NCBI RefSeq assembly: GCF_000504285.1
Contig: NZ_KI632511.1
Span: forward strand, 3,221,372 to 3,285,371
Source of the DNA: Actinospica robiniae DSM 44927
GTDB lineage: Bacteria; Actinomycetota; Actinomycetes; Streptomycetales; Catenulisporaceae
Length of the DNA: 64,000 nucleotides
Direction of reading: 5' to 3'
Every line of letters begins with the position of its first letter. The stretch's first letter is position 1. Below, in pieces: positions 1 to 56,747 of this stretch. The translations under genes were made by a program, and so were the position numbers. The notes under the pieces were generated by a model. The model worked only from the letters and a program-made list of their open reading frames with translations, had not been told where the DNA came from and ran no database searches.

Positions 1-650
1 TCGCCGCGAAGCTGGTTTCCGGAGGCCGCGGCGGCTACTGCTACGAGCACAACCTGCTGTTCGCGGCGGTGCTGCGCGAGCTCGGCTACACGGTGAGCCT
101 GCACTCCGGGCGCGTGTTGTACGGCGCGCGGGGCGACGCGGTGCGGCCGCGTTCGCACACGATGCTCCTCGTCCACTTCGACGACGAGCCCCAGCCCTAC
201 CTGACCGACGTCGGCTTCGGCACCGTGGGCTGCCTCCTCGCGCCGATCCCGCTGATCGCCGACGCCGAACTGCGGGACGAGCCGCGCCGCCACCGCCTTG
301 TGCGCGAGACCGGCCCGAATCCGCTACCGACCTGGACGCTGCAGGCTCACACGGACGGCGAGTGGGTGAATCAGTACATGTTCACCGAGGAGACGTTCCT
401 GCCGGTCGACTACCAGATGCTCAACTGGTACACCTCGACGTTCCCGCGCTCGCCGTTCAAGCTGGCGCCGTTCATCCAGCACAACAGCCCCGAGCGCCAC
501 CTCGAGTTGACCGGCAAAACCCTGACCGAGCGGCACGTCGACGGCACCCGCGCGGTCCGCGAGATCGAGGACCGCGCGGAACTGATTCGCCTGCTGCGCA
601 CGGAGTTCGGCATCGACGTGCCGCAGTACTTCGTCGAGAGCGCGTCTTAG
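1..650 (+). CDS. Arylamine N-acetyltransferase, 3' part (start lies before the window)
   Basis: The reading frame is open from base 3 and ends at TAG 648-650, so the N-terminus is missing. All three elements of the NAT catalytic triad are visible: the cysteine in GGRGGYCYEHN (bases about 27-53), the histidine in RSHTMLLV, and the aspartate in YLTDVGFG. Enzymes of this family transfer the acetyl (or other acyl) group of acyl-CoA to arylamines and hydrazines through a cysteine thioester; some actinobacterial members act as amide synthases in ansamycin pathways. No polyketide genes are nearby, so a xenobiotic or general NAT role is more likely, but this is inference. About 215 residues are visible, consistent with a family length near 260-280. 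It converges with the next gene, the two stops being one base apart. An internal GTG at 69 lies after the catalytic Cys and is not the start. Confidence 0.9.
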   Translation, partial: AAKLVSGGRGGYCYEHNLLFAAVLRELGYTVSLHSGRVLYGARGDAVRPRSHTMLLVHFDDEPQPYLTDVGFGTVGCLLAPIPLIADAELRDEPRRHRLVRETGPNPLPTWTLQAHTDGEWVNQYMFTEETFLPVDYQMLNWYTSTFPRSPFKLAPFIQHNSPERHLELTGKTLTERHVDGTRAVREIEDRAELIRLLRTEFGIDVPQYFVESAS

Positions 651-651
651 A

Positions 652-1506
652 TCACGGCTTGCGACCGACCGCGCCCGCGATGCACCGCTGCGCTGCGGTG
701 AGCGGCCGCAGCCGGGGGCCGTCCGGCCACCAGTCGGCGCAGCGGACCAGGCCGGGCTCGACGAGCTCGAGCCCCGCGAACAGCTCGAGGAGCTGGGCCT
801 GGGTGCGGAAGGTGCCGGATCCCATCGGGCTGTGCAGGAAGGCCTGCTCGGCGTCGCGCGCGGTGGAGCTGTACTCGTTCTCCGGGTCGAAGAAGTGGGA
901 GAGCACGACGAAGGAGCCGGAAGGGAGCGCCTCGATGTACTCGCGCATGATCTGCGCGGGACGGTCCTTCGGGCCCGAGTAGTGGTGCAGGGTACCGCTC
1001 TGCACGAGCGCGAGCGGACGGGTGAAGTCGATCTTACGCGTGATCACCTCGTTGGACAGGATGGCCTTCGGCTCGAAGATGTCCTCCGCGATGAAGCGGC
1101 AGTGCTCGTTCGCTTCGAGCAGCGCGCGGCCGTGCGCGAGCACCACCGGGTCGTTGTCCACGTACACGACTTCGGCTTCCGAGTTGATGCGCTGCACCAC
1201 CTGGTGCACGTTCTCGGCCGTGGGCAGGCCGGAGCCGAGGTCGAGGAACTGGTCGATCTTGGCCTCCAGGACCAGGAACCGGCAGGCCCGGGTGAGGAAG
1301 CCGCGGTTCTCGAAGGCCAGTTCCTGCGCTGTCGGCATGTGCTCTTGCACCTGCGCGAGGACCGCGCGGTCGATGGCGTAGTTGTCCTTGCCGTTAAGGA
1401 AGGCGTCGTAGACCCTGGCGATGCTCGCCCGCGTGGGGTCCACCCCGACCGGTGGCTTCGGCTCCGCGACGAGGGGAGAAACGGCAACCTCTGGACTGTC
1501 CGACAT
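652..1506 (-). CDS. SAM-dependent methyltransferase, DUF574 family
   Basis: This 284-residue protein matches the actinobacterial DUF574 / S-adenosyl methyltransferase family. It opens with the characteristic DPTRASIARVYDAFLNGKDN segment and has a SAM-binding glycine loop FLDLGSGLPTAENVH, an acidic strand end VVYVDNDPVV, and a late strand with SHFFDPEN. The family is expanded in Streptomyces-type genomes, often next to regulators, and its substrates are unknown. The ATG at 1506 is preceded on the minus strand by GAAGGAGAG at a suitable distance. The C-terminus includes the WWPDG signature seen in many members. It stands alone, convergent with the acetyltransferase, and no pathway can be inferred from the neighbours. 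Confidence 0.9.
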   Translation of the reverse strand: MSDSPEVAVSPLVAEPKPPVGVDPTRASIARVYDAFLNGKDNYAIDRAVLAQVQEHMPTAQELAFENRGFLTRACRFLVLEAKIDQFLDLGSGLPTAENVHQVVQRINSEAEVVYVDNDPVVLAHGRALLEANEHCRFIAEDIFEPKAILSNEVITRKIDFTRPLALVQSGTLHHYSGPKDRPAQIMREYIEALPSGSFVVLSHFFDPENEYSSTARDAEQAFLHSPMGSGTFRTQAQLLELFAGLELVEPGLVRCADWWPDGPRLRPLTAAQRCIAGAVGRKP

Positions 1507-1765
1507 GAAAACCGACTCTCCTTCGCAGGCGAGATCTTCCGGCGGCTCGACGCTCCCGTGTGGACGCGCGGTAACTCAGCGTAGGCCGCCGTGCCGGAAT
1601 AGTAAATCGATGTGAGGTGCGAGTCGCGTGACGGATCAGCATCCGCGAGCCTCGCAGTTCCCTGACCGTCCTAAACGTCCGGTCGGCCGACCGGCATCTC
1701 ACCGCGGAAGCGGACTTTTAGCGGACATGGGCTTGAGGAGGCGCGGAAGCGCAGGTAGACGACGG

Positions 1766-1797
1766 CCCGCCCGGCCGAGGGTACACGGCCGGGCGGG
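1766..1797. terminator. Hairpin terminator downstream of the GH2 operon
   Basis: A perfect 12-bp stem CCCGCCCGGCCG (1766-1777) pairs with CGGCCGGGCGGG (1786-1797) around an 8-base loop. It lies about 50 bases past the stop of the minus-strand GH2 gene, so it probably ends that operon. There is no long U-tract, as is common in actinobacteria. The rest of the 338-base gap 1507-1844 shows no gene. Confidence 0.6.
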
Positions 1798-1844
1798 TTC
1801 AGCAGCACCCTGACTCAGAGCATTGCTTGAATGTACGAGTCCTG

Positions 1845-3950
1845 TCAGCGCGAGGACGTCACGTCCAGCAGCGTGCGGCCCACGACACGGCCCGCGGCGA
1901 CGAACAGCAGGTGCAGGCGCGCCGAGACGGCGCCCGCGGGCAGGGACGTGCAAACGCGGACCGGCTCGCTCAGCCGGAACGGCTGCGCCTTCACCGACTC
2001 CGTCGCGGCCGGCTCGTCGGCGGAACCGGCCACGGCGTCGCGCTCCGCATCCAGCGCGAACGGCGCGCTCCAGACCGGAAGCACGTACCCCTCGACCGGC
2101 TCGTCACCGTGGTGCGAGACCCGCACGACGAACGCGATCTCGCCGCCCCTGCCCGCGACCAGGTCGCGGCCCGGCGCGAGCGGCTCGACCTCGGGAATCA
2201 GGACCGTGACTGCGTTCGTCAGCGCGGGCGGATTGGCGCCGGTGTCCTTGAGCTTGCGGTCGAAGGAGTAGATGCCGGCGGTCTCGTGCTCGATGTCGTA
2301 CAGCTCGGTCCACACGTAACCGGAGAGCTGGTCGTAGCGGCGCAGTTCCTGAGTCTGCCAACGCAGATTCCAGCCGCGCTCGACGCTGGTGATGCCGCCG
2401 CCGAACTCGCTGTTGAGGTTCGGCACGTCGGCCGGGGCGCCTGCGCCGACCTCGGCCATCAGATGCTTGTCGACCACCCAGTCCGGGCCGAGGCCCACCG
2501 GGAAGGTCGCCTCGTTGCGCTCAAGCAGAGCCCTGACCTTCTCCGCCCAGCCACGCGGGGTCTCGTCGTAGATGTGCCAGTCCACCAGGTCGGTGGCCAC
2601 GTGCGACCAGCCGGAGTCATCCACCGCCGGGCGGGTCGGGTCGAGCGCCTTGAGCAGGTCGTAGGCGCGGCGCACGGCCTCCTGCTTGGCCGGGTCGGCG
2701 GCCACGTCCCAATCCAGGCCCCACTCCTCGTTGTACAGGCCCCACACCACGACGCTCGGGTGGTTGCCGTCGCGGCGCACCATCGGCTCGATCTGCGCCT
2801 CGAAACGGGCCACCGCCGCCGGGGTGAACACACCGGTGCTGGCGGGCTCGGCCCACACCAGCATGCCGAGCCGGTCGGCGTGGTACAGGAACCGCGGGTC
2901 CTCGAGCTTGAGGTGCTTGCGGACCAGGTTGAAGCCGGCTTCCCGGGCGATCTCGATGTCGGTGACGAACGCCTGGTCGTCCGGCGCGGTGATGCCGGTG
3001 CGCGGCCAGTAGCCCTGATCCAGCACGCCGCGCAGGTACACCTGCTGCCCGTTGAGCAGGATCTGCGAGCCGCGCGTCTCGATCCGGCGCAGTCCGGTCG
3101 AGGCGCCGACGGTGTCCTCGCCGTCAGCCGACTCCAGGCGCACGCGCACCGGGTAGAGGTGCGGGTCTTCGGGGCTCCACAGCCGCGGTTCGCTGATCGG
3201 CACGGTCACGGCGACCTCGACGCGGGCGCCGTCGGAGGAATCGACGTTCTCTGCGATCGCCTGCACACTGCGGCCTGCGACCTCGACCGTCACCCGGGCG
3301 CCGTTCGCGTTCGGGCCGGCCACGGCGATCCGCGCCACGACGGCGTCGAGCGAATCCGCGGGGGTGAGCGCGACCTCGGCCAGGTGGGTGGCCGGACGTG
3401 CTTCGAGCCAGACCGGCTGCCAGATACCGCTGCTCGGGGTGAAGGCGCAGATGTCGTAGACGTCGCGCGGGATGCTGCGTTGCTTGCCGTGCACGATCTC
3501 GCGCTTGTCGGCCGGCGAGTACACCTTGACCAGCACAGTGGCTTCCGCCGTCCCCTCCGCGGCGGCAGCCAGGGCGCCGGTGACGTCGAACTCGAACGGA
3601 GTGTTGCCGCCCTCGTGCTCGCCGACGAACGCGCCGTTCACCCAGACCCGCGCCTGGTGGTGTACGGCGCCGAAGTGCAGTACCACGCGCTGCCCGGCCC
3701 ACTCCGCCGGGACCGGCAGGGAGCGCCGGTACCAGCCGTGCTCGAGCCACTGCGCCTCGACCGTCGAGGCCTCGCTCTCCCAGGCGAACGGCACCACGAT
3801 CCGCTCGGACCACTGCTCCGCGGCGGCCATCCGCTCGGGGGAGGCCGAACCAGCCGGGTCCCGCGCGAAGTCCCACTCGCCGTTGAGGCTGAGCCAGGCG
3901 TGCGAACGGTCGAAGTGCGGCCGAGGGTATTCGGGACGTACGGATGACAC
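1845..3950 (-). CDS. Glycoside hydrolase family 2 (beta-galactosidase/glucuronidase type)
   Basis: The protein has GH2 layout: a jelly-roll sugar-binding domain starting at LNGEWDF, an immunoglobulin-like domain, and a TIM barrel. The acid/base glutamate is in GLYNEEWG (about residue 407) and the nucleophile glutamate in NSEFGGG (about residue 514). There is no signal peptide, so it is probably cytoplasmic and acts on imported oligosaccharides. I chose the GTG at 3950 because GGGAGA sits 6 bases upstream; an in-frame GTG at 3989 would add 13 residues but has a poor ribosome site. It is the last gene of a minus-strand set (binding protein, two permeases, GH2), 93 bp after the permease. The substrate could be a beta-galactoside, beta-glucuronide, beta-mannoside or arabinoside; motifs alone do not decide. 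Confidence 0.92.
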   Translation of the reverse strand: MSSVRPEYPRPHFDRSHAWLSLNGEWDFARDPAGSASPERMAAAEQWSERIVVPFAWESEASTVEAQWLEHGWYRRSLPVPAEWAGQRVVLHFGAVHHQARVWVNGAFVGEHEGGNTPFEFDVTGALAAAAEGTAEATVLVKVYSPADKREIVHGKQRSIPRDVYDICAFTPSSGIWQPVWLEARPATHLAEVALTPADSLDAVVARIAVAGPNANGARVTVEVAGRSVQAIAENVDSSDGARVEVAVTVPISEPRLWSPEDPHLYPVRVRLESADGEDTVGASTGLRRIETRGSQILLNGQQVYLRGVLDQGYWPRTGITAPDDQAFVTDIEIAREAGFNLVRKHLKLEDPRFLYHADRLGMLVWAEPASTGVFTPAAVARFEAQIEPMVRRDGNHPSVVVWGLYNEEWGLDWDVAADPAKQEAVRRAYDLLKALDPTRPAVDDSGWSHVATDLVDWHIYDETPRGWAEKVRALLERNEATFPVGLGPDWVVDKHLMAEVGAGAPADVPNLNSEFGGGITSVERGWNLRWQTQELRRYDQLSGYVWTELYDIEHETAGIYSFDRKLKDTGANPPALTNAVTVLIPEVEPLAPGRDLVAGRGGEIAFVVRVSHHGDEPVEGYVLPVWSAPFALDAERDAVAGSADEPAATESVKAQPFRLSEPVRVCTSLPAGAVSARLHLLFVAAGRVVGRTLLDVTSSR

Positions 3951-4043
3951 GAGAGTTCTCCCAGGGTCGGTGACAGAGCGCGCGGGCACTCGGAGTGCCC
4001 CGCACTGCGGAGGAAGGATCGAGGTGGGCGGGCGCCGGCGAGG

Positions 4044-4976
4044 TCAGCTGGTGAGGCTGCCCTGCAGCGCGCCGCCGCGGAAGTAGCGTTCGAGCAGGAG
4101 GAAGAGGGCGATCAGCGGCAGCACGGTGACCAGGCCACCGGCGATCAGGACGGGTATGTCCTGGCTCTGCGTCCCGGTCTGGGCGGCCTGGGAGAGGGCG
4201 GACAGGCCCACGGTCAGCGGGTAGAGGCTGCTGCGGCTGAACAGGATCAACGGCAGGAAGTAGTTGTTCCACACCGCGACCACGGTCAGCAGCAGCACCG
4301 TGACCAGGCCGGGCACGGTCAGCGGCAGCACGATCCGGCAGAAGATGCGCAGCTCGCCCGCGCCGTCGATGCGCGCCGCGTTGATCAGGTCGGACGGCAC
4401 CGAGGCGTCGATGTAGGAGCGCATCAGGTACACGCCGATCGGCGAGACCATGCTCGGCAGAATCATGCCCCAGATCGAGTTGACCAGGCCGACCTTGGCG
4501 TAGACCAGGAACAGCGGCAGCGCCACGGCGCTGATCGGCACCAGCAGGGTCGACATCACCACGGAGAAGAGCGCGTTCGAGCCGCGGAACCGGAACCGGG
4601 CGAAGCCGTATCCGGCCAGCGCCGAGATGATCGTGGAGCCGACCCCGCCGAGGACGGCGTAGAGCATCGTGTTCCACAGCCAGGTCAGGTAGGTGCCCGC
4701 GCCGCTGACGTCCTGGCCGAGCGCCCTGATGTTCTGGAAGAGCCGGAACGGGCCGGCGAACCAGAATCCGGAGCTGTAGTAGACGTAGGTCTGCGACTTG
4801 GTCGAGGCGATGAGCAGCCAGACCAGCGGCGCCAGGATGAACAGCGCGAACAGCACGCTGATCAGCGTCATCACCGAGGTCGTGGTGCGGCTCAGGCCGT
4901 ACAGTCGGACCGGGACCTCGTCGGGCCGGACGGCGGGGCGCCCGGAGCGGGAGCGCCGGGAACGAAGCAGGCTCAT
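4044..4976 (-). CDS. Carbohydrate ABC importer permease (MalG/CUT1 type)
   Basis: 310 residues with about six membrane segments, starting with a cytoplasmic basic tail and a first helix MTLISVLFALFILAPLVWLL. The EAA-loop that docks the ATPase is recognisable as NAARIDGAGELRIFCRIVLPL. The C-terminus ends LLERYFRGGALQGSLTS, typical of MalG-type CUT1 permeases. The ATG at 4976 overlaps the stop of the upstream permease as ATGA, so translation is coupled. It forms the membrane channel with the next gene and receives sugar from the binding protein at 5962-7419. No ATPase gene is present in the operon. In related actinobacteria a shared MsiK-type ATPase drives such importers. Confidence 0.93.
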   Translation of the reverse strand: MSLLRSRRSRSGRPAVRPDEVPVRLYGLSRTTTSVMTLISVLFALFILAPLVWLLIASTKSQTYVYYSSGFWFAGPFRLFQNIRALGQDVSGAGTYLTWLWNTMLYAVLGGVGSTIISALAGYGFARFRFRGSNALFSVVMSTLLVPISAVALPLFLVYAKVGLVNSIWGMILPSMVSPIGVYLMRSYIDASVPSDLINAARIDGAGELRIFCRIVLPLTVPGLVTVLLLTVVAVWNNYFLPLILFSRSSLYPLTVGLSALSQAAQTGTQSQDIPVLIAGGLVTVLPLIALFLLLERYFRGGALQGSLTS

Positions 4977-12062: not shown

Positions 12063-12322
12063 TCGCCAGAACCCGCTACCCCACTCTGGCTCCGGCCCTC
12101 ACGGACCAAGACCCGGCCGCCGACCGCCAGGGCCGCAACGAGCTGCGTCTTCGAAATTGGCCAGACGTCCGGAGACGACCGACGTCACCCCTTTCCTGAC
12201 CAGCCAGACCGCGCGCGCCCTCCGGAACGTCAAGCACATTCATCCAGCCGTCCGGCTTGTTCGTGTAGACAAGCGAGTCTCAGGCTCACCGCTGGCGTTA
12301 ATGCTGATTGATGCTCGGGTCG

Positions 12323-12665
12323 TCGATCGGCTGGTGTTTGGTTGGGCTTGCGGTCTGGCTCTTCGGTTTGGGTTTTTTGTCTCTCCGAGGGGCCCTTCGC
12401 TCGGAGAGGGGGTTGCTGGTGGGTTGGGGTTTTCCGGGTGGGTGGGTGGGGTGCGGGGTGGTTCCTCTCCTCGCTCGGTCACCGGAGGACATCAGGGACC
12501 TGCCGGGGGTGCAAGCGGCGGTGGTTTGGGCTGGTGGGGTGGTTGTCGTTGCGCCGCTTGCGCCCCCGGCAGAACCCTGATCTGGCTTCGCCTGCCCGAG
12601 CGAGGAGAGGATCCACCCCTTCCGGGCCGGGTGTGCGCTGCGCTCGGGCCGGGCGCCGGTGCGGG
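12323..12665 (+). repeat. Left long inverted repeat of the DUF222 element
   Basis: This arm contains nested internal palindromes. CCTCTCCTCGCTCGG (12464-12478) pairs with CCGAGCGAGGAGAGG (12596-12610). Inside it, CCTGCCGGGGGTGCAAGCGGCG (12499-12520) nearly pairs with the block at 12552-12572. The arm could therefore fold into a long hairpin as DNA or RNA. Open frames across it are by-products of the repeat. The rest of the 906-base gap 12063-12968 holds only a tandem repeat and an AT-richer promoter-like stretch (TATACT at 12924). Confidence 0.85.
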
Positions 12666-12795
12666 ATTGTGCCGGTCGGTGCTGCTGCGGATGGTGGGCG
12701 TGTGCGTGCGGGATTGTGCCGGTCGGGACGTCATCCCGGTCCGGTGCTGCTGCGGATGGGTGGCGTGTGCGTGCGGGATTGTGCCGGGGGTCCGG
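12659..12795. repeat. Short tandem repeat inside the element, 2.4 copies
   Basis: Units begin GTGCGGGATTGTGCCGG at 12659, 12706 and 12771. The first two continue with GTGCTGCTGCGGATG and GGCGTGTGC. The second unit carries an 18-base insertion relative to the first (65 versus 47 bp). Confidence 0.75.
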
Positions 12796-12968
12796 CCGGG
12801 TGGCGCGGGCTCGTTTGTCTTCTGCCTGTAGACGCGTGGCGTGGCTGCCGGGTTGCGGATTATTCGTCCTCTTTCGTGTGGGAACGAGTGGCCGTATATG
12901 CGTCTTTTGTCGGAACCCTGTCTTATACTTGAGGTAGCAGGTTGAACACGGGTGGCTAGGGGGAGTGG

Positions 12969-14576
12969 GTGGGGTCGATGACGGACATCGCGGACGCGCT
13001 AGAGGTGCCGGATGTGGCAGGGCTCGAGCAGATGGCCGTGGTGCTGCGCGCGAGTGTGGCCCGGCAGCTGGAGGCCTTGGCCGCGGCGGGGCCGGAGGAT
13101 CGGGAGGCGGCCGCGGCGAGCCTGGAGCTGGCGGCGGCGATCGGGCGGATCGAGCAGGTCGCGCACGGCCTGCACCTGCAGGCGCTCGCGCAGGCGGACC
13201 GGGTCAAAGCGGCGCGCGGGGGGATCGGGCCCTGGCTCGCGGCACGGCAGGGCTATGCCACCGGTCACGCCCGCGCCCTGGCCCGAGACGCCCGGCTCCT
13301 CGCCTGCGTCCCGGACCTCGCCCCACACCTGACCGCCGGCGAGCTCACGGCGGACGCCACCCGGCTGCTGGCCCGCACCGTCAAAGCCTGCAAAGACACC
13401 AGCATCGACCCCGCCGAAGCGACCAGCGCGATCCTGCACCTGGTGAAGCAGGACGGGGTCAGCGCCGCGGCCGGACACGTCCGGGCACTCGAGCACCGGC
13501 TCGACCCGGACAAGGCCAAGTCGGATCATGAGCGGCATCGGCAGCGCAGCAAAGCGGAATCGTGGAGGCTCGAGAACGGGCTGTGGCGCTTCGAGATCCT
13601 GCTCGACCCCGCCCGGGCCGCCGTCGTGAAAGCCGCGCTCGAGGCCCTGACCGCGCACTGGATGCGCGTCAACGGCCGCGACGGCATCCAGATCCTGCCC
13701 GAAGACGTGAAAACCACCGAGCAGATCACCGCCCACGCCTTCTACCACCTCGCGAAAGTCTGCCTCAACGCACCACCCCGCCTACGCCAAGCAGCCTTCA
13801 CCCCGCCCGTCATCTTCACCGCCCCCCTCCCGGACACAGACACCGACGCGGAACCGACGACCACTTCCGGGCCGATGCATAATCCGGCAGCGGCCACCGC
13901 CGGCACAGCCGCCACCGCAGTGACGCAGGATCCGGTAGCGCCCCCGGCCACCGTTGCGGCCGCCGCGAACGCAGCGGCGGGCACGCATCATCACACACCG
14001 GCCACTGCCACCCCCGCCACCGCAGTGCTGCCGGATCCGGTATCGGGCACCATGGGCCCCACGATCGCGGTGATGCGGGATCCGGCATCGGATACGGTCC
14101 TCGAGGAGCGCTCCGGCGGCGCTCGTGGCGGCCGGATCCCGGACGGATGCGCGCTGAGCGCCTACGACGACGTCATCCCCCTCGCCGCTCTCGTCCGCAC
14201 ACCTCCGACCCGCCTGGCACCACTGCGAGATTCCGCACGGCCGCGCGATCGCGCACGGCTGCATGATCCGGCATGGCTGGAGGATCACGCGCGCCACCGG
14301 ATCCTGCACCACGACCGCGACCACCGCCCCGTCCTGCTCGACGGGCAGCCGATCGACCAGAACCCGCACGCCCGCCTGGCCAGCGCCGCCCAGCGCACCG
14401 CCCTCGCCGTACGCGACCGCACCTGCACCTACGCCGGGTGCGACCGACCCTTCCCCTGGTCCCTCGAAGCCCACCACCTCACCCCCTACTCCGAAGGCGG
14501 GGCCACGACCCTGACGAACCTCACCTCCCTCTGCGCCGAACACCACCGCACCCTCCACCACCCCGACCCCCACTGA
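12969..14576 (+). CDS. DUF222 / 13E12-family protein with C-terminal HNH nuclease domain
   Basis: 535 residues. The N-terminal 260 form an alpha-helical DUF222 domain (Ala/Glu-rich, with IGRIEQVAHGLHLQALAQAD and WRLENGLWRFEILLDP). A Pro/Ala/Thr-rich linker, about 290-430, follows, built partly from DNA-level repeats around GGATCC. The C-terminus is an HNH motif: CTYAGCD, then EAHHLTPYSEGGATTLTNL and CAEHHRTLHH, with paired cysteines for metal. The family is predicted to be a DNA endonuclease and in mycobacteria it is repeated around the genome. The gene starts at GTG 12969 or ATG 12978, both close to GGGGGAG. A candidate -10 is at 12924. The 344-bp inverted repeats either side imply transfer as a unit. 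Confidence 0.9.
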   Translation: MGSMTDIADALEVPDVAGLEQMAVVLRASVARQLEALAAAGPEDREAAAASLELAAAIGRIEQVAHGLHLQALAQADRVKAARGGIGPWLAARQGYATGHARALARDARLLACVPDLAPHLTAGELTADATRLLARTVKACKDTSIDPAEATSAILHLVKQDGVSAAAGHVRALEHRLDPDKAKSDHERHRQRSKAESWRLENGLWRFEILLDPARAAVVKAALEALTAHWMRVNGRDGIQILPEDVKTTEQITAHAFYHLAKVCLNAPPRLRQAAFTPPVIFTAPLPDTDTDAEPTTTSGPMHNPAAATAGTAATAVTQDPVAPPATVAAAANAAAGTHHHTPATATPATAVLPDPVSGTMGPTIAVMRDPASDTVLEERSGGARGGRIPDGCALSAYDDVIPLAALVRTPPTRLAPLRDSARPRDRARLHDPAWLEDHARHRILHHDRDHRPVLLDGQPIDQNPHARLASAAQRTALAVRDRTCTYAGCDRPFPWSLEAHHLTPYSEGGATTLTNLTSLCAEHHRTLHHPDPH

Positions 14577-14588
14577 CCCGTGCGGAAA

Positions 14589-14932
14589 CCCGCACCGGTC
14601 GCCCGGCCCGAGCGCAGCGCACACCCGGCCCGGAAGGGGTGGATCCTCTCCTCGCTCGGGCAGGCGCAGCCAGATCAGGGTTCTGCCGGGGGCGCAAGCG
14701 GCGCAACGACAACCACCCCACCAACCCAAACCACCGCCGCTTGCACCCCCGACAGGTCCCTGATGTCCTCCGGTGACCGAGCGAGGAGAGGAACCACCCC
14801 GCACCCCACCCACCCACCCGGAAAACCCCAACCCACCAGCAACCCCCTCTCCGAGCGAAGGGCCCCTCGGAGAGACAAAAAACCCAAACCGAAGAGCCAG
14901 CCCGCAAGCCCAACCAAACACCAGCCGATCGA
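14589..14932 (-). repeat. Right long inverted repeat of the DUF222 element
   Basis: Reverse complement of the arm at 12323-12665, starting 12 bases after the stop codon of the HNH gene. It carries the same nested hairpin blocks. Confidence 0.85.
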
Positions 14933-15175
14933 TCAGTAGCAGAGCAGTCGGCGGGACGTCCGCTCCGACCAGTTGCACTCTCGCACAGAGGATGGGCCTG
15001 TTATCCGCGCGTGGCTGCGGCGATCGAACACTAATCAACGATTCTCAAAGCACTGTTGACGGTAAAAGGCTCAAGAGCTACACATATCAGACAGGACCGC
15101 ACGCACATGGCGGTGCGTGCGTCAGGCCGCTCCCACCGTCCCCAGCCCTCGAATCGACCAACGGAGGTCGATACC

Positions 15176-53395: not shown

Positions 53396-53781
53396 AACTT
53401 GCCACCGTGGAGGCGTCGAAGAGGCTAAAGGTGGCCTACTGCGAGCTGATGATCGGCTGAGTGGTCGTCAGGGTGTGGGCGGGCGCTTCGCGCCACCTGC
53501 GGTTTCGTCTGACCGCCCGCCCACCCGTTGCGTGGCGGGGCGGGCTGGGGTTTCAAGATTTCGCCTCCGGCGCGGGCCCTTCCTCGGAGAGAGCTGCCGG
53601 GGTCGTGTAGGTGCTGGCGTTGGTGGGGCGGGCTGTGGTCCGGGGTGGTCGGGTGCCGGGGGTGTGCTCTCTCCTCGGTCGGTCCCCGGAGGCAATCAGG
53701 AACCTGCCGGGAGGTCAAGCGGCGGCGGCTTCCGCTCATGCTCGATCTTGCATCGCGCCGCTTGACCTCCCGGCAGAACCC

Positions 53782-55573
53782 CAATGCCGCGTAGTTAAGG
53801 GTTTCCCGGCCCTGTCAAGTGGTGCTTTTCAGGGCATGTCGGTCTTGGTCGGGGTGGTGGACGCGCGAACGGGACGAGACCTCTGATACACCGGTGCGGT
53901 CTGCCAGGACTGCCCGGGAAATCAGAGGTCTCGTTGCCTGCCAAGTCTGCCATGCCCGCTCTCACCCGCGCCATCACGCGCGCCTGTGGTTCCTTCGCCG
54001 CGGGCCATCTCGGTCCTTTGACACAGGTGATCCCGTTCGAGCTGGTCGACGCGGTACTCGCCGAGACCGGCCGCACCGAGCGGCGAGTGCGCCGGCTGCC
54101 CTCACGCGTCGCGCTCTACCTCGTGCTGGCGATGGCGCTGTTCGAGAAGGCCCCGATATCCGGGGTGTTCTCCGTGCTGAGCGCGGGACTGAGGGCACCG
54201 GCGGTCTCGGAGAAGGCGTTGCGCGACGCACGCCGGCGGATCGGGCCGGAACCGGTCAAAGCGCTCTTCGACGTGCTCGCCGGCCCGATCGCGCAACCAC
54301 ACACCCCCGGAACGCGCTACCGCAGGTGGCGCACGGTCGCGTTCGACGGCTGCTCCTCCACCAAGATCCCCGACACCCCGGACAACCGGGCCGTCTACGG
54401 CCGCGCACCGGTACGCCACGGACACGCCGGCTACCCGATGCTGATGCTCATGACCCTGGCCGAGACCGGCACCCGCGCACTGGCCGCAGCGGTGTTCGGA
54501 CCGAGTGGCACCGGGGAGATCGCCTACGCCGAGAAACTCCTTGCCCACCTCGACGCGAGCATGCTGCTACTGGCCGACCGCGGCTTCGACGCCGCCGGTT
54601 TCCTGGCCAAAGCCGCCGGCACCGGGGCACACCTGCTCGTGCGCGCCACCGCCAACCGCCGCCCGCCCGTGCTCGCACACCTACCCGACGGCTCCTACCT
54701 CACCCTGATCGGCACACTCAGGATGCGGGTGATCGAAGCCGAGGTCACCGTCACCGCCACCGACGGCTCCACCCACACCGGCACCTACCGGCTGATCACC
54801 ACCCTGCTCGAACACCGGTCCGACCCCGCACCCACACTCCTCGCCCTCTACCACGAACGCTGGGAGACCGAGACCGCGTTCCTCGCCATCCGCCACACCC
54901 TGCTCGACGGACGCGTCCTACGCTCACGCGACCCCGCGGGCCTGGCCCAGGAGATGTGGGGCATCCTCACCGTCTACCAGGCCCTACGCACCCTCATGTG
55001 CGAAGCAGCCGAAACAATCCCCGGCACCGACCCCGACCGGATGTCCTTCACCCTCGCCCTGCACACCGCCCGCACCCACACCATCCTCGCCGACCTCGGC
55101 AACCCCACCGACCGGCCCGGGCCCATCGGCCACGCCGTCCTGGCCCCACCCCAACCCCGCCCGCCGCCCCCGCCACAGCACCCGCAAACTCAAATCCCCC
55201 GGCCAGCGCTACACCTACAAAGACCCCACCAGACCCACCCACAGCACCACGATCACCGGCATCACCCTCACGATCCACCCGCCCACCATCACCCCGCCAC
55301 CCGCCCCACCCCCCGGCCAACCCGGCCAACCCGGCCGAGCACCCGAGAAAAACCACGTCCTGAACCTCCTCCGACAGACCCCCGACCAGCCCCGACGCAT
55401 CCCCGAGATCGCCGCCGCCCTCGGTATCAGCGGCCGAAAACACACCAACAACCTGGGCGTCAGAATCAACCGCTGGGCCCACCAAGGACTCCTGACCAAA
55501 ACAGCCCCCGGCACCTACACGATCAAGAAACAGCCCTTGACAGACCACCAGAACCCTTAACTACGCGGCATTG
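53782..55573 (+). mobile_element. IS4-family insertion sequence, 1.79 kb
   Basis: Terminal inverted repeats begin CAATGCCGCGTAGTTAAGGG on both ends (left 53782, right end 55573), are perfect for 22 bp, and then are partly conserved (CTGTCAAG). A perfect 10-bp target duplication GGCAGAACCC lies at 53772-53781 and 55574-55583. The IS has split the left arm of the surrounding repeat element; joining the flanks restores the intact arm sequence CCCGGCAGAACCCTGATCGG, seen also in the right arm. Confidence 0.9.
53934..55560 (+). CDS. IS4-family transposase, probable frameshift near 55150
   Basis: It starts MPAKSAMPALTRAITRACGS with an IS4 N-terminal domain (GPLTQVIPFELVDAVLAETG). Catalytic DDE residues lie in AFDGCSSTKIPDTPDN, LLADRGFDAAGF and YHERWETETAFLAIRH. 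In the starting frame the protein turns into Pro/His/Arg-rich nonsense after about residue 400 and would end at 55586. From about 55160 the +1 frame carries the natural end (RKLKSPGQRYTYKDPT, then a helix-turn-helix-like IPEIAAALGISGRKHTNN) and stops at 55560, inside the right repeat. The switch lies in the C-rich stretch 55144-55160. It may be an inactivating indel, a sequencing error or programmed +1 frameshifting. Confidence 0.85.
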
Positions 55574-55705
55574 GGCAGAACCCTGATCGGGCTTCGCCTG
55601 CCCGACCGAGGAGAGAGCACACCCCCTGAGGGTCCGGTGCGAGCTGCGCTCAGGCCGAGCCCCGGCCCGCGGCCCGGCCGCGATCGATCCGGCAAAATCC
55701 TGCAT

Positions 55706-56169
55706 CGCCGTCCTGAGCTGCCCTTCCTCTCTACTCCTTCAACGCCGGGGAACGTCGCCGAGTGCCCGGAAATAGCCTGAATTTTCTTTATCTGGTAAAC
55801 GCCGGATACGCGGTTTTTGTCGGTGGCGGCGTCTAGCATGGAAGAGTACGGGGATCGGGACTTGCGACGGGAGGGGTGGTGGGCGCGGTGGCTGGGCAGA
55901 TGGCGTCAGGGGTGTGGCTGAAGGCGGTGCAGGATTTCCCTCGGGGTGCGACCGAGCCACGCGATCGTGCGCATCGCGTGAGCACCGGGTGGATCGGACC
56001 GGGGCGCTGCAGAATCCTTCCGCATCGGGCGCGGCTGGCCGCGGGATTCTGCCGCGAGATCTGGGATCGGGATGCTCGGATCAGGGTGATGTAAGATCCG
56101 ACATGAGGTGCGACCGGCCCACGGGACCCTTCGCGCGGATCGATGATCGGGATGGTCGGATCAGGGTGG
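55706..56169. other. Non-coding centre of the second inverted-arm element
   Basis: No gene is visible. The stretch has a promoter-like AT-richer part (55775-55850) resembling the region in front of the HNH gene at 12890-12950 (both contain TTTTGTCGG). It also has degenerate copies of a GATGC-GGATCC-GCAT-like unit (around 55930, 56010, 56090, 56170). It looks like the remains of a DUF222-type element whose gene has been deleted. Confidence 0.5.
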
Positions 56170-56747
56170 TGCAGGTTTCTTCCGGATCGGGCGCGGCCGG
56201 GCCGCGGGCCGGGGCTCGGCCCGAGCGCAGCTCGCACCGGACCCTCAGGGGGTGTGCTCTCTCCTCGGTCGGGCAGGCGAAGCCCGATCAGGGTTCTGCC
56301 GGGAGGTCAAGCGGCGCCATGCAGAATCAAGCACCAGCCACAGCCACCGCCGCTTGACCTCCCGGCAGGTCCCTGATTGCCTCCGGGGACCAACCGAGGA
56401 GAGAGCACACCCCCGCAACCTCACCATCCCGAACAACAGCCCGCCCCGCCACGCCGGCACCCACGCAACCCCGGCATCTCTCTCCGAGGAAGGGCCCCAG
56501 CCGGAGGCGAGATCTTGAAACTCCAGCCCACCCCACCAACGCAACGGGTGGGCGGGTGGACAGAAGAACCGTGGGCGACGCGAAGCGGCCGCCCCGCCGA
56601 CTACCCCGACCCGACAAGCCACTACACCCCATCAGCACCCAGTCGGTCATCAATCCGTATTGAACGATCCGCATGTCAAGAGTTCTGCCGGGTTCCGGAA
56701 CCCATGGGGTGAATCCGTGATCGATTCCCGGAACCTGTCGCATGGGA

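Follow-up and report, generated by a model that had tools for sequence, protein, structure and literature searches.

Does a single gene for a DUF222-HNH protein, located between two long inverted repeats in the genome of Actinospica robiniae DSM 44927, belong to a mobile element, and if so, what moves it? The gene lies in a stretch of 64,000 nucleotides, here called the window, which corresponds to positions 3221372-3285371 of the 9.92-Mb genome, a single contig (NZ_KI632511.1). We found that the repeats, referred to as arms, and the gene form one repeated unit, and that this unit is a member of a bounded, multicopy family of elements whose anatomy and past mobility are well supported. Whether the unit is an element similar to insertion sequences (IS), whose own gene is DUF222-HNH and whose product mobilises both the unit and the gene-less copies, we consider an even call.

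An earlier note on this DNA had described, at 12323-14932, a single gene enclosed by long, near-identical inverted repeats with nested palindromes inside each of them. Both descriptions hold. A search for inverted repeats without gaps paired 12323-12655 with 14600-14932 (333 nt, 99% complementary, spaced by 1944 nt) around a gene at 12969-14576; the repeat is about 343 nt long once small gaps are allowed, and each arm contains two stems. The arms had been placed correctly and only the outer limits were slightly short, the unit being 12299-14938. Comparison with a second copy, read by eye, moved the left limit outward to a TA at 12299-12300, and the right end, with its TA at 14937-14938, is about 18 bp short of the full terminal sequence. 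TA-type ends follow the form TANNGCG..TTGATGATCGGCTG, and in the window copy, which sits between genes, a T precedes the left TA and a G follows the right one (YTAR). The features in the window are as follows.

12299-14938, no strand: whole armed element, TA to TA, from the aligned four ends of two type-A copies and the sequence
12301-12655, plus strand: left arm (12323-12655 is the gap-free part), from the inverted-repeat search and the comparison with the second copy
14600-14936, minus strand: right arm, with an outer terminus about 18 bp shorter than the other three type-A ends (by eye)
12491-12581, no strand: inner hairpin of the left arm, 30-nt stem halves 12491-12520 and 12552-12581, with a counterpart in the other aligned arms
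14674-14764, no strand: inner hairpin of the right arm, stem halves 14674-14703 and 14735-14764
12455-12619, no strand: outer stem of the left arm, part of the same palindrome as the inner hairpin, 12455-12481 and 12593-12619
14636-14800, no strand: outer stem of the right arm, 14636-14662 and 14774-14800
12381-12408, no strand: small palindrome CTCTCCGAG..CTCGGAGAG close to the outer end of the left arm, with a counterpart at 14847-14874
12630-12787, plus strand: three 46-nt repeats with TGCGGGATTGTGCCGG-type sequence, resembling the short palindromic sites by eye
12900-12935, plus strand: upstream block (CTTTTGTCGG...), alike by eye between type-A elements, type-B elements and element 8248
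12969-14576, plus strand: DUF222-HNH gene, 535 amino acids, DUF222 at residues 50-329 and HNH at residues 490-531
13870-14275, plus strand: variable linker of the gene with short palindromic sites, for example at 13872-13891, 14027-14046, 14074-14088 and 14260-14274
53461-56645, no strand: second family member in the window, a gene-less type-B element whose left arm is split by an insertion

The upstream block may possibly be a promoter or operator, and the gene-less derivatives match the part of the full type-B elements that contains it. The insertion in the left arm of the second family member carries an IS4-type transposase gene (53934-55586).

A second full copy of the element is located at 311045-313633, 2.9 Mb away. 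It is 99.3% identical over a block of 2189 bp, with arms that are 94-98% identical and unrelated flanks. Since these two type-A copies have arms and gene in common in unrelated surroundings, the whole unit has moved. The arms recur throughout the host genome: using an arm-core pattern of 27 positions with up to 3 mismatches, we obtained 97 forward and 94 reverse matches, and none in either orientation for the reversed-pattern control, and the arm repeat is thus not a chance occurrence. These 191 matches correspond to an estimated 95 or so paired-arm elements in the genome, most of them without the gene; the arm counts rest on the pattern search, and an initial repeat scoring covered 40 of 296 candidates. 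The contig begins (L114/L163, positions 1-4528) at or inside an armed element, so that the contig end may be a break caused by the repeat.

For the association between arms and gene, we examined 569 kb in 75 segments that were chosen for matches to the arm, gene or terminus and cover part of all arm groups. Inverted pairs, always in the order + ... -, accounted for 74 of the 75 arm groups, one of which (8305289-8308628) was possibly counted twice owing to an insertion. A protein search of the genome identified 13 DUF222-HNH loci, two of them interrupted (2059308 and 4075491). Twelve of the 13 genes are located inside inverted arm pairs, and 62 pairs have no gene. In an independent search of the flanks for inverted repeats, 12 of the 13 loci likewise had long ones, with best pieces of 153-571 nt. 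The earlier note had held that a mobile unit could be dismissed if arms were widespread without DUF222 genes and never occurred as a pair; arms without the gene are indeed widespread, but they are paired.

We compared 32 of the gene-less elements with seven full elements and found a median length of 1.41 kb (range 1.14-1.65 kb, measured between the outer arm matches). All 32 interiors match the sequence just upstream of the gene, to about 30 nt into the coding region, and/or the sequence from the stop codon to the right arm, at approximately 68-98% identity. Because all of them retain sequence that flanks the coding region, we consider them similar to miniature inverted-repeat transposable elements (MITEs) and formed by loss of the coding region. 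Like MITEs they are short, multicopy and non-coding, have inverted ends and stem from a gene-bearing element. Longer pairs contain transposase genes wherever inspected, such as L147, L149 and L159, and these genes, of several kinds, look like later insertions (the kinds were named by eye except for IS4 and DDE_3).

We also searched the genus-mates for the joined flanks of ten elements. Sites free of the element, which the earlier note had proposed to look for in relatives, were found in at least one genus-mate in three of the ten cases, namely 6442494 (two genus-mates), 9225384 and 9244807 (one each). The flanks of 6442494 adjoin each other in both G001 (84%) and G002 (72%), where the site lies between a pair of conserved genes; we take one of the pair to be nuoN. 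Genome G001 has no element at 9225384 and 9244807, where a net 71 and 31 bp, respectively, are present in addition near the junction, and G002 has 837 bp between the flanks of 9225384, with neither arms nor DUF222. At the other seven sites, one flank or none was matched. No element-free version of the window copy's own site was seen among the matches listed, in which only the right-hand gene, for an alpha-galactosidase, was strongly related within the family.

The encoded protein is a member of the DUF222-HNH (13E12) family, with a DUF222 domain (PF02720, 34.2 bits, cut-off 24.4, E = 2e-8) followed by an HNH domain (PF01844, 34.8 bits, cut-off 21.4, E = 2e-8). Ten other open reading frames (ORFs) of 106-418 amino acids that overlap the unit yielded no Pfam match at E <= 0.01. 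The histidines, asparagine and cysteines of the HNH motif, to which we presume the usual roles, are unchanged across 12 aligned copies. The ratio of nonsynonymous to synonymous substitutions (dN/dS) was 0.15-0.28 for all 15 pairs among six type-B copies. These six proteins are under purifying selection, indicating that the protein was selected during the spread of the element. Pairs inside two further clades yielded ratios of 0.41 and 0.35; the type-A pair is too similar to judge selection (dN 0.003, dS 0.002), and pairs of different types had high dS values (0.56-2.0) and ratios of 0.3-1.0 that are hence little informative.

Comparisons with proteins of solved structure gave IscB, Cas8f-HNH and McrA among the nearest HNH sequences, as weak matches (E = 0.003-0.01) to the HNH region only. 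The DUF222 part is helical in the AlphaFold model, with a mean predicted local distance difference test score of 66, and a Foldseek search of the whole-protein model against the PDB returned nothing at E <= 0.001. Two other identities were tried and rejected. As a restriction or defence gene, the locus gave only weak HNH matches in PADLOC, the best of them against a model for type IV restriction (E = 2e-4). As a structured RNA, the segment 11500-15700 produced two Rfam matches, both to mir-H1, with 26.8 and 25.7 bits against a gathering score of 97.

If the DUF222-HNH protein is what moves the family, it would recognise the arms via the hairpin and/or via short GATGCAGGATCC..GCATC-like palindromes, which occur in the interior, the arm loops and the gene. 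It would then cut the DNA to release or copy the element, insert it at CTAG or YTAR with duplication of the TA, and act in trans on the gene-less elements as well. For a catalytic role of the HNH protein in mobilisation we infer chances that are about evenly balanced.

The target context bears directly on this question. Our end-finder required a TA at 7-11 bases outside the terminus motif and located 71 ends in 56 elements; because of this requirement only the neighbouring bases are informative. The base before the TA was C at 55 ends, T at 14 and G at 2, and the corresponding frequencies for background TAs were 51% G, 30% C, 13% A and 7% T. Both ends were located in 21 of the 56 elements, and the other 35 are outside the following count. 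When the two ends were joined, all 21 displayed YTAR and 14 of these CTAG, compared to 2.8% CTAG among 3440 background TAs. Between the TA and the conserved GCG lie two variable bases, mostly CT, GA, AC or AT; in 20 of the 21 elements they are not the same at both ends. The TA-type terminus was observed only in arm types A and B, which are the multicopy types. Arms of type C, of element 8248 and of G002 have TCAA-rich ends, some with (GTCAAC)n repeats (L053, L060, L126, L130), and from this we infer that the gene and the hairpin arms predate the TA ends that accompany amplification.

Flanking TAs in a preferred context are also what characterises IS630/Tc1-type elements. IS630-type elements insert into TA and duplicate it (PMC2170065), and a title in the reference list of the same paper states that IS630 favours TA within CTAG. 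The main rival explanation is accordingly that an IS630/Tc1-type DDE transposase, acting in trans or since lost, moves the elements as MITE-like passengers, the DUF222-HNH gene being captured cargo or a regulator. We regard this as a possible but somewhat unlikely alternative. It would account for the YTAR and CTAG context and for the restriction of TA-type ends to the two multicopy types. IS630-type (DDE_3) genes are present in the genome, and an IS630-type element in two copies (L134 and L135, at 8182296 and 8461885) is bordered by CTA at each of its four ends. One of these copies is located inside an armed element, and L134 displays the terminus of that element. Moreover, 29 of 30 relatives contain matches to a shortened terminus pattern when at most 2 mismatches are allowed, often more than for the reversed control; the matches listed differ by 1-2 bases, and their surroundings were not examined.

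Against this explanation, none of the five DDE_3 matches in the genome has the terminus of the armed elements as its own ends, and the two-copy IS630-type element has a different terminal repeat of 31 nt. The terminus pattern of the armed elements has 140 matches in the genome (68 and 72 in the two orientations; control 0 and 0), and arms were found alongside in 18 of 19 stretches fetched for such a match. The exception, L153, has no transposase-like gene nearby by eye. A twentieth stretch (L165) is an IS630 copy, and the systematic search of DDE families extended to DDE_3. As termini go together with arms and the DDE_3 loci lack the ends of the element, a DDE partner is disfavoured. In addition, the bases just inside the TA are variable in the armed elements, and such variation is unusual for IS630 ends.

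We also examined the arm hairpin and short sites in the arms and interiors. The hairpin alignment contained 103 rows, of which 95 were distinct anchored cores and eight came from types A, C and G002, the window arms being present twice. Most positions of the 30-bp stem are paired, and compensatory changes on both sides were seen at 9 of the 30 pairs, for example from G-C to C-G, T-A to C-G and T-A to G-C; the numbers refer to sequences rather than to separate events, and type-B arms are close relatives of one another. An internal mismatch of 2-3 bases is kept in most rows and is paired in type C. In view of the two-sided changes the hairpin, as DNA or RNA, seems to be maintained under constraint. 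Insertions split 14 arms, namely at arm-B coordinates 97-98 (1), 315-344 (4), 354-366 (4), 375-381 (1) and 393-404 (3), plus one type-C arm, and the hairpin region looks like an insertion hot spot. In L053 (8248140-8251533), the right-arm loop carries an insertion whose transposase-like gene resembles IS30 by eye.

We counted 94 occurrences of the short motif TGCA[GAC][GA]AT[CT]C in the gene-less interiors (17.2 kb), 37 in the arms (27.5 kb) and none in the flanks (63.5 kb); the pattern was chosen after reading the elements. A matrix for a longer site (like GATGCAGRATYCTTCCGCAYC), trained on the same 32 gene-less elements, detected 6.5 sites per gene-less element and 0 in the flanks, and no site in type C. 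The arm loops contain short sites too, as does the variable linker of the gene; those in the linker are translated into peptide repeats, for example MKDPAVHA. The short palindrome is a putative protein binding site.

A second rival reading, for which this distribution speaks, is spread of the gene by a homing-like process: DUF222-HNH would cleave arms or gene-less elements at the short palindromes, recombination would copy the gene into them, and the gene would in this way spread through a repeat family that already existed. HNH is a common type of homing nuclease, gene-bearing and gene-less arms are mixed in a weak tree, and element 8248 is a mosaic, with arms of type B (88-95%) around a gene whose protein is about 40% identical to that of type B and a change in similarity at the inner arm edges. 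We nevertheless consider homing improbable. The sequence flanking the coding region that all 32 gene-less elements keep makes them resemble losses more than original empty recipients, and the two type-A copies moved as whole units. Homing nucleases are expected in an intron or intein of a conserved gene; the window copy is intergenic and the three element-free sites look intergenic.

The most ordinary explanation would be that the DUF222 (13E12) gene is static and is flanked by chance by copies of an unrelated, dispersed palindromic repeat. This fits with the common multicopy state of DUF222 genes in the phylum but is hardly credible, because 12 of the 13 genes lie in inverted pairs though the elements cover an estimated few per cent of the genome, the gene-less derivatives have gene-flanking remnants and the second copy is armed. 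The casposon-like mobiliser suggested in the earlier note found no support either: no Cas1 model matched the DUF222-HNH gene or the ten further ORFs, and DUF222-HNH is the only Pfam match of the unit.

We screened other genomes for related loci. One of 13 searched genomes was positive, with no DUF222 match in eleven genomes of two other genera. The positive genome, G002, contains three DUF222-HNH genes, of which one is located between arms, one beside an arm at a contig end, and one is cut by a contig end; another arm lies at the end of contig C19. No PF02720 match was obtained in G001, but HNH-coding relics and a single arm are present on its contig C406 (3.4 kb). The relics on this contig (L203) are inverted on both sides of a transposase-like ORF and adjoin the arm. 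A related-locus search of genome contigs found nothing, and a plasmid search returned one record with a weak HNH match. Across the phylum, DUF222 was detected in 48 of 119 sampled genomes.

Several observations weigh against mobilisation by the DUF222-HNH protein, or against a fixed unit of gene and arms. The targeting of TA within CTAG is the published signature of IS630-type DDE transposases, and the TCAA-rich ends of types C, 8248 and G002 imply that gene and hairpin arms exist without the TA terminus. At the element-free sites the junctions are located in diverged intergenic DNA, where a TA duplication is unreadable. The mosaic element 8248 indicates that gene and arms are exchangeable, and the arm tree that intermixes gene-bearing and gene-less elements is unresolved. 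At locus 4366762 only pieces of the right arm are present and the left arm was not found, and contig C364 of G002 contains a solo arm. DUF222 genes elsewhere are multicopy without such arms. Finally, we came across no biochemical evidence of DNA being moved by a DUF222-HNH protein.

The closest known systems share part of this organisation. The 13E12 or REP13E12 repeats likewise have a DUF222 and HNH architecture and are dispersed and multicopy. REP13E12, HNH and DUF222 are listed among repetitive elements in one paper (PMC10589994), and a 2026 preprint describes REP13E12 of Mycobacterium tuberculosis as gene-conversion hotspots with no defined biological function (PMC13061034). The genes of this type sampled outside the genus are without long flanking inverted repeats, unlike 12 of the 13 host genes. 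At 20 DUF222 loci from six genomes of five genera outside the genus we found no comparable arms, the longest inverted match being 61 nt, and no inverted repeat longer than 41 nt when up to 1.5 kb of flank was checked at 30 loci from other genera (three loci are common to both checks, and 5 of the 30 were shortened by contig ends). When the three G002 loci were included, for a total of 33, the only long repeat was at one of these three (191 nt, 88%), the other two being at contig edges; 7 of 33 mismatched control pairs also matched, over up to 77 nt. Bare-gene dispersal occurs in genome G070 of another genus, where armless DUF222 genes at four places (L179-L182) form units of about 1.43 kb that are 83-90% identical.

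IS630/Tc1-mariner elements and their MITEs resemble the family in having TA ends in YTAR, mostly CTAG, and many gene-less derivatives. Unlike them, the window unit has no DDE transposase gene of its own by Pfam, and the arms of the elements are 340-450 bp long with a conserved internal hairpin, whereas the DDE_3 genes of the genome are without matching ends. Repetitive extragenic palindromic (REP) sequences with their associated tyrosine transposases (RAYT) also combine a nuclease gene between inverted hairpin repeats with many gene-less hairpin copies. The nuclease here is instead an HNH protein with no HUH/Y1 domain by Pfam, and the armed elements are bounded units of approximately 1.1-2.6 kb where not enlarged by insertions. 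The resemblance to IscB and its obligate mobile element-guided activity (OMEGA) systems is weak and confined to the HNH region, with 23.2 bits to the IscB model against an equivalog cut-off of 175. Our searches of open-access full texts turned up no account of armed DUF222 elements; subscription papers and ISfinder were outside these searches.

We tentatively raise a broader possibility, which we think less probable than the mobilisation of this unit by its own gene. DUF222-HNH could be the transposase-equivalent of a new class of elements, in which an HNH nuclease, with no DDE, HUH, serine or tyrosine recombinase, recognises paired hairpin arms, targets YTAR and mobilises some 80 gene-less derivatives in trans. 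In that case the armless 13E12 repeats would be relatives with a simpler way of life.

DUF222-HNH genes are widespread in actinobacteria, and here the gene belongs to a bounded, amplified element with a structure at its ends. An element with gene-less derivatives and element-free sites makes the mobilisation of DNA by DUF222-HNH proteins testable with defined substrates. Should the HNH protein prove responsible, transposition would have a new enzymatic route; should it be an IS630-type enzyme, the family would represent a striking capture of a nuclease gene by a MITE.

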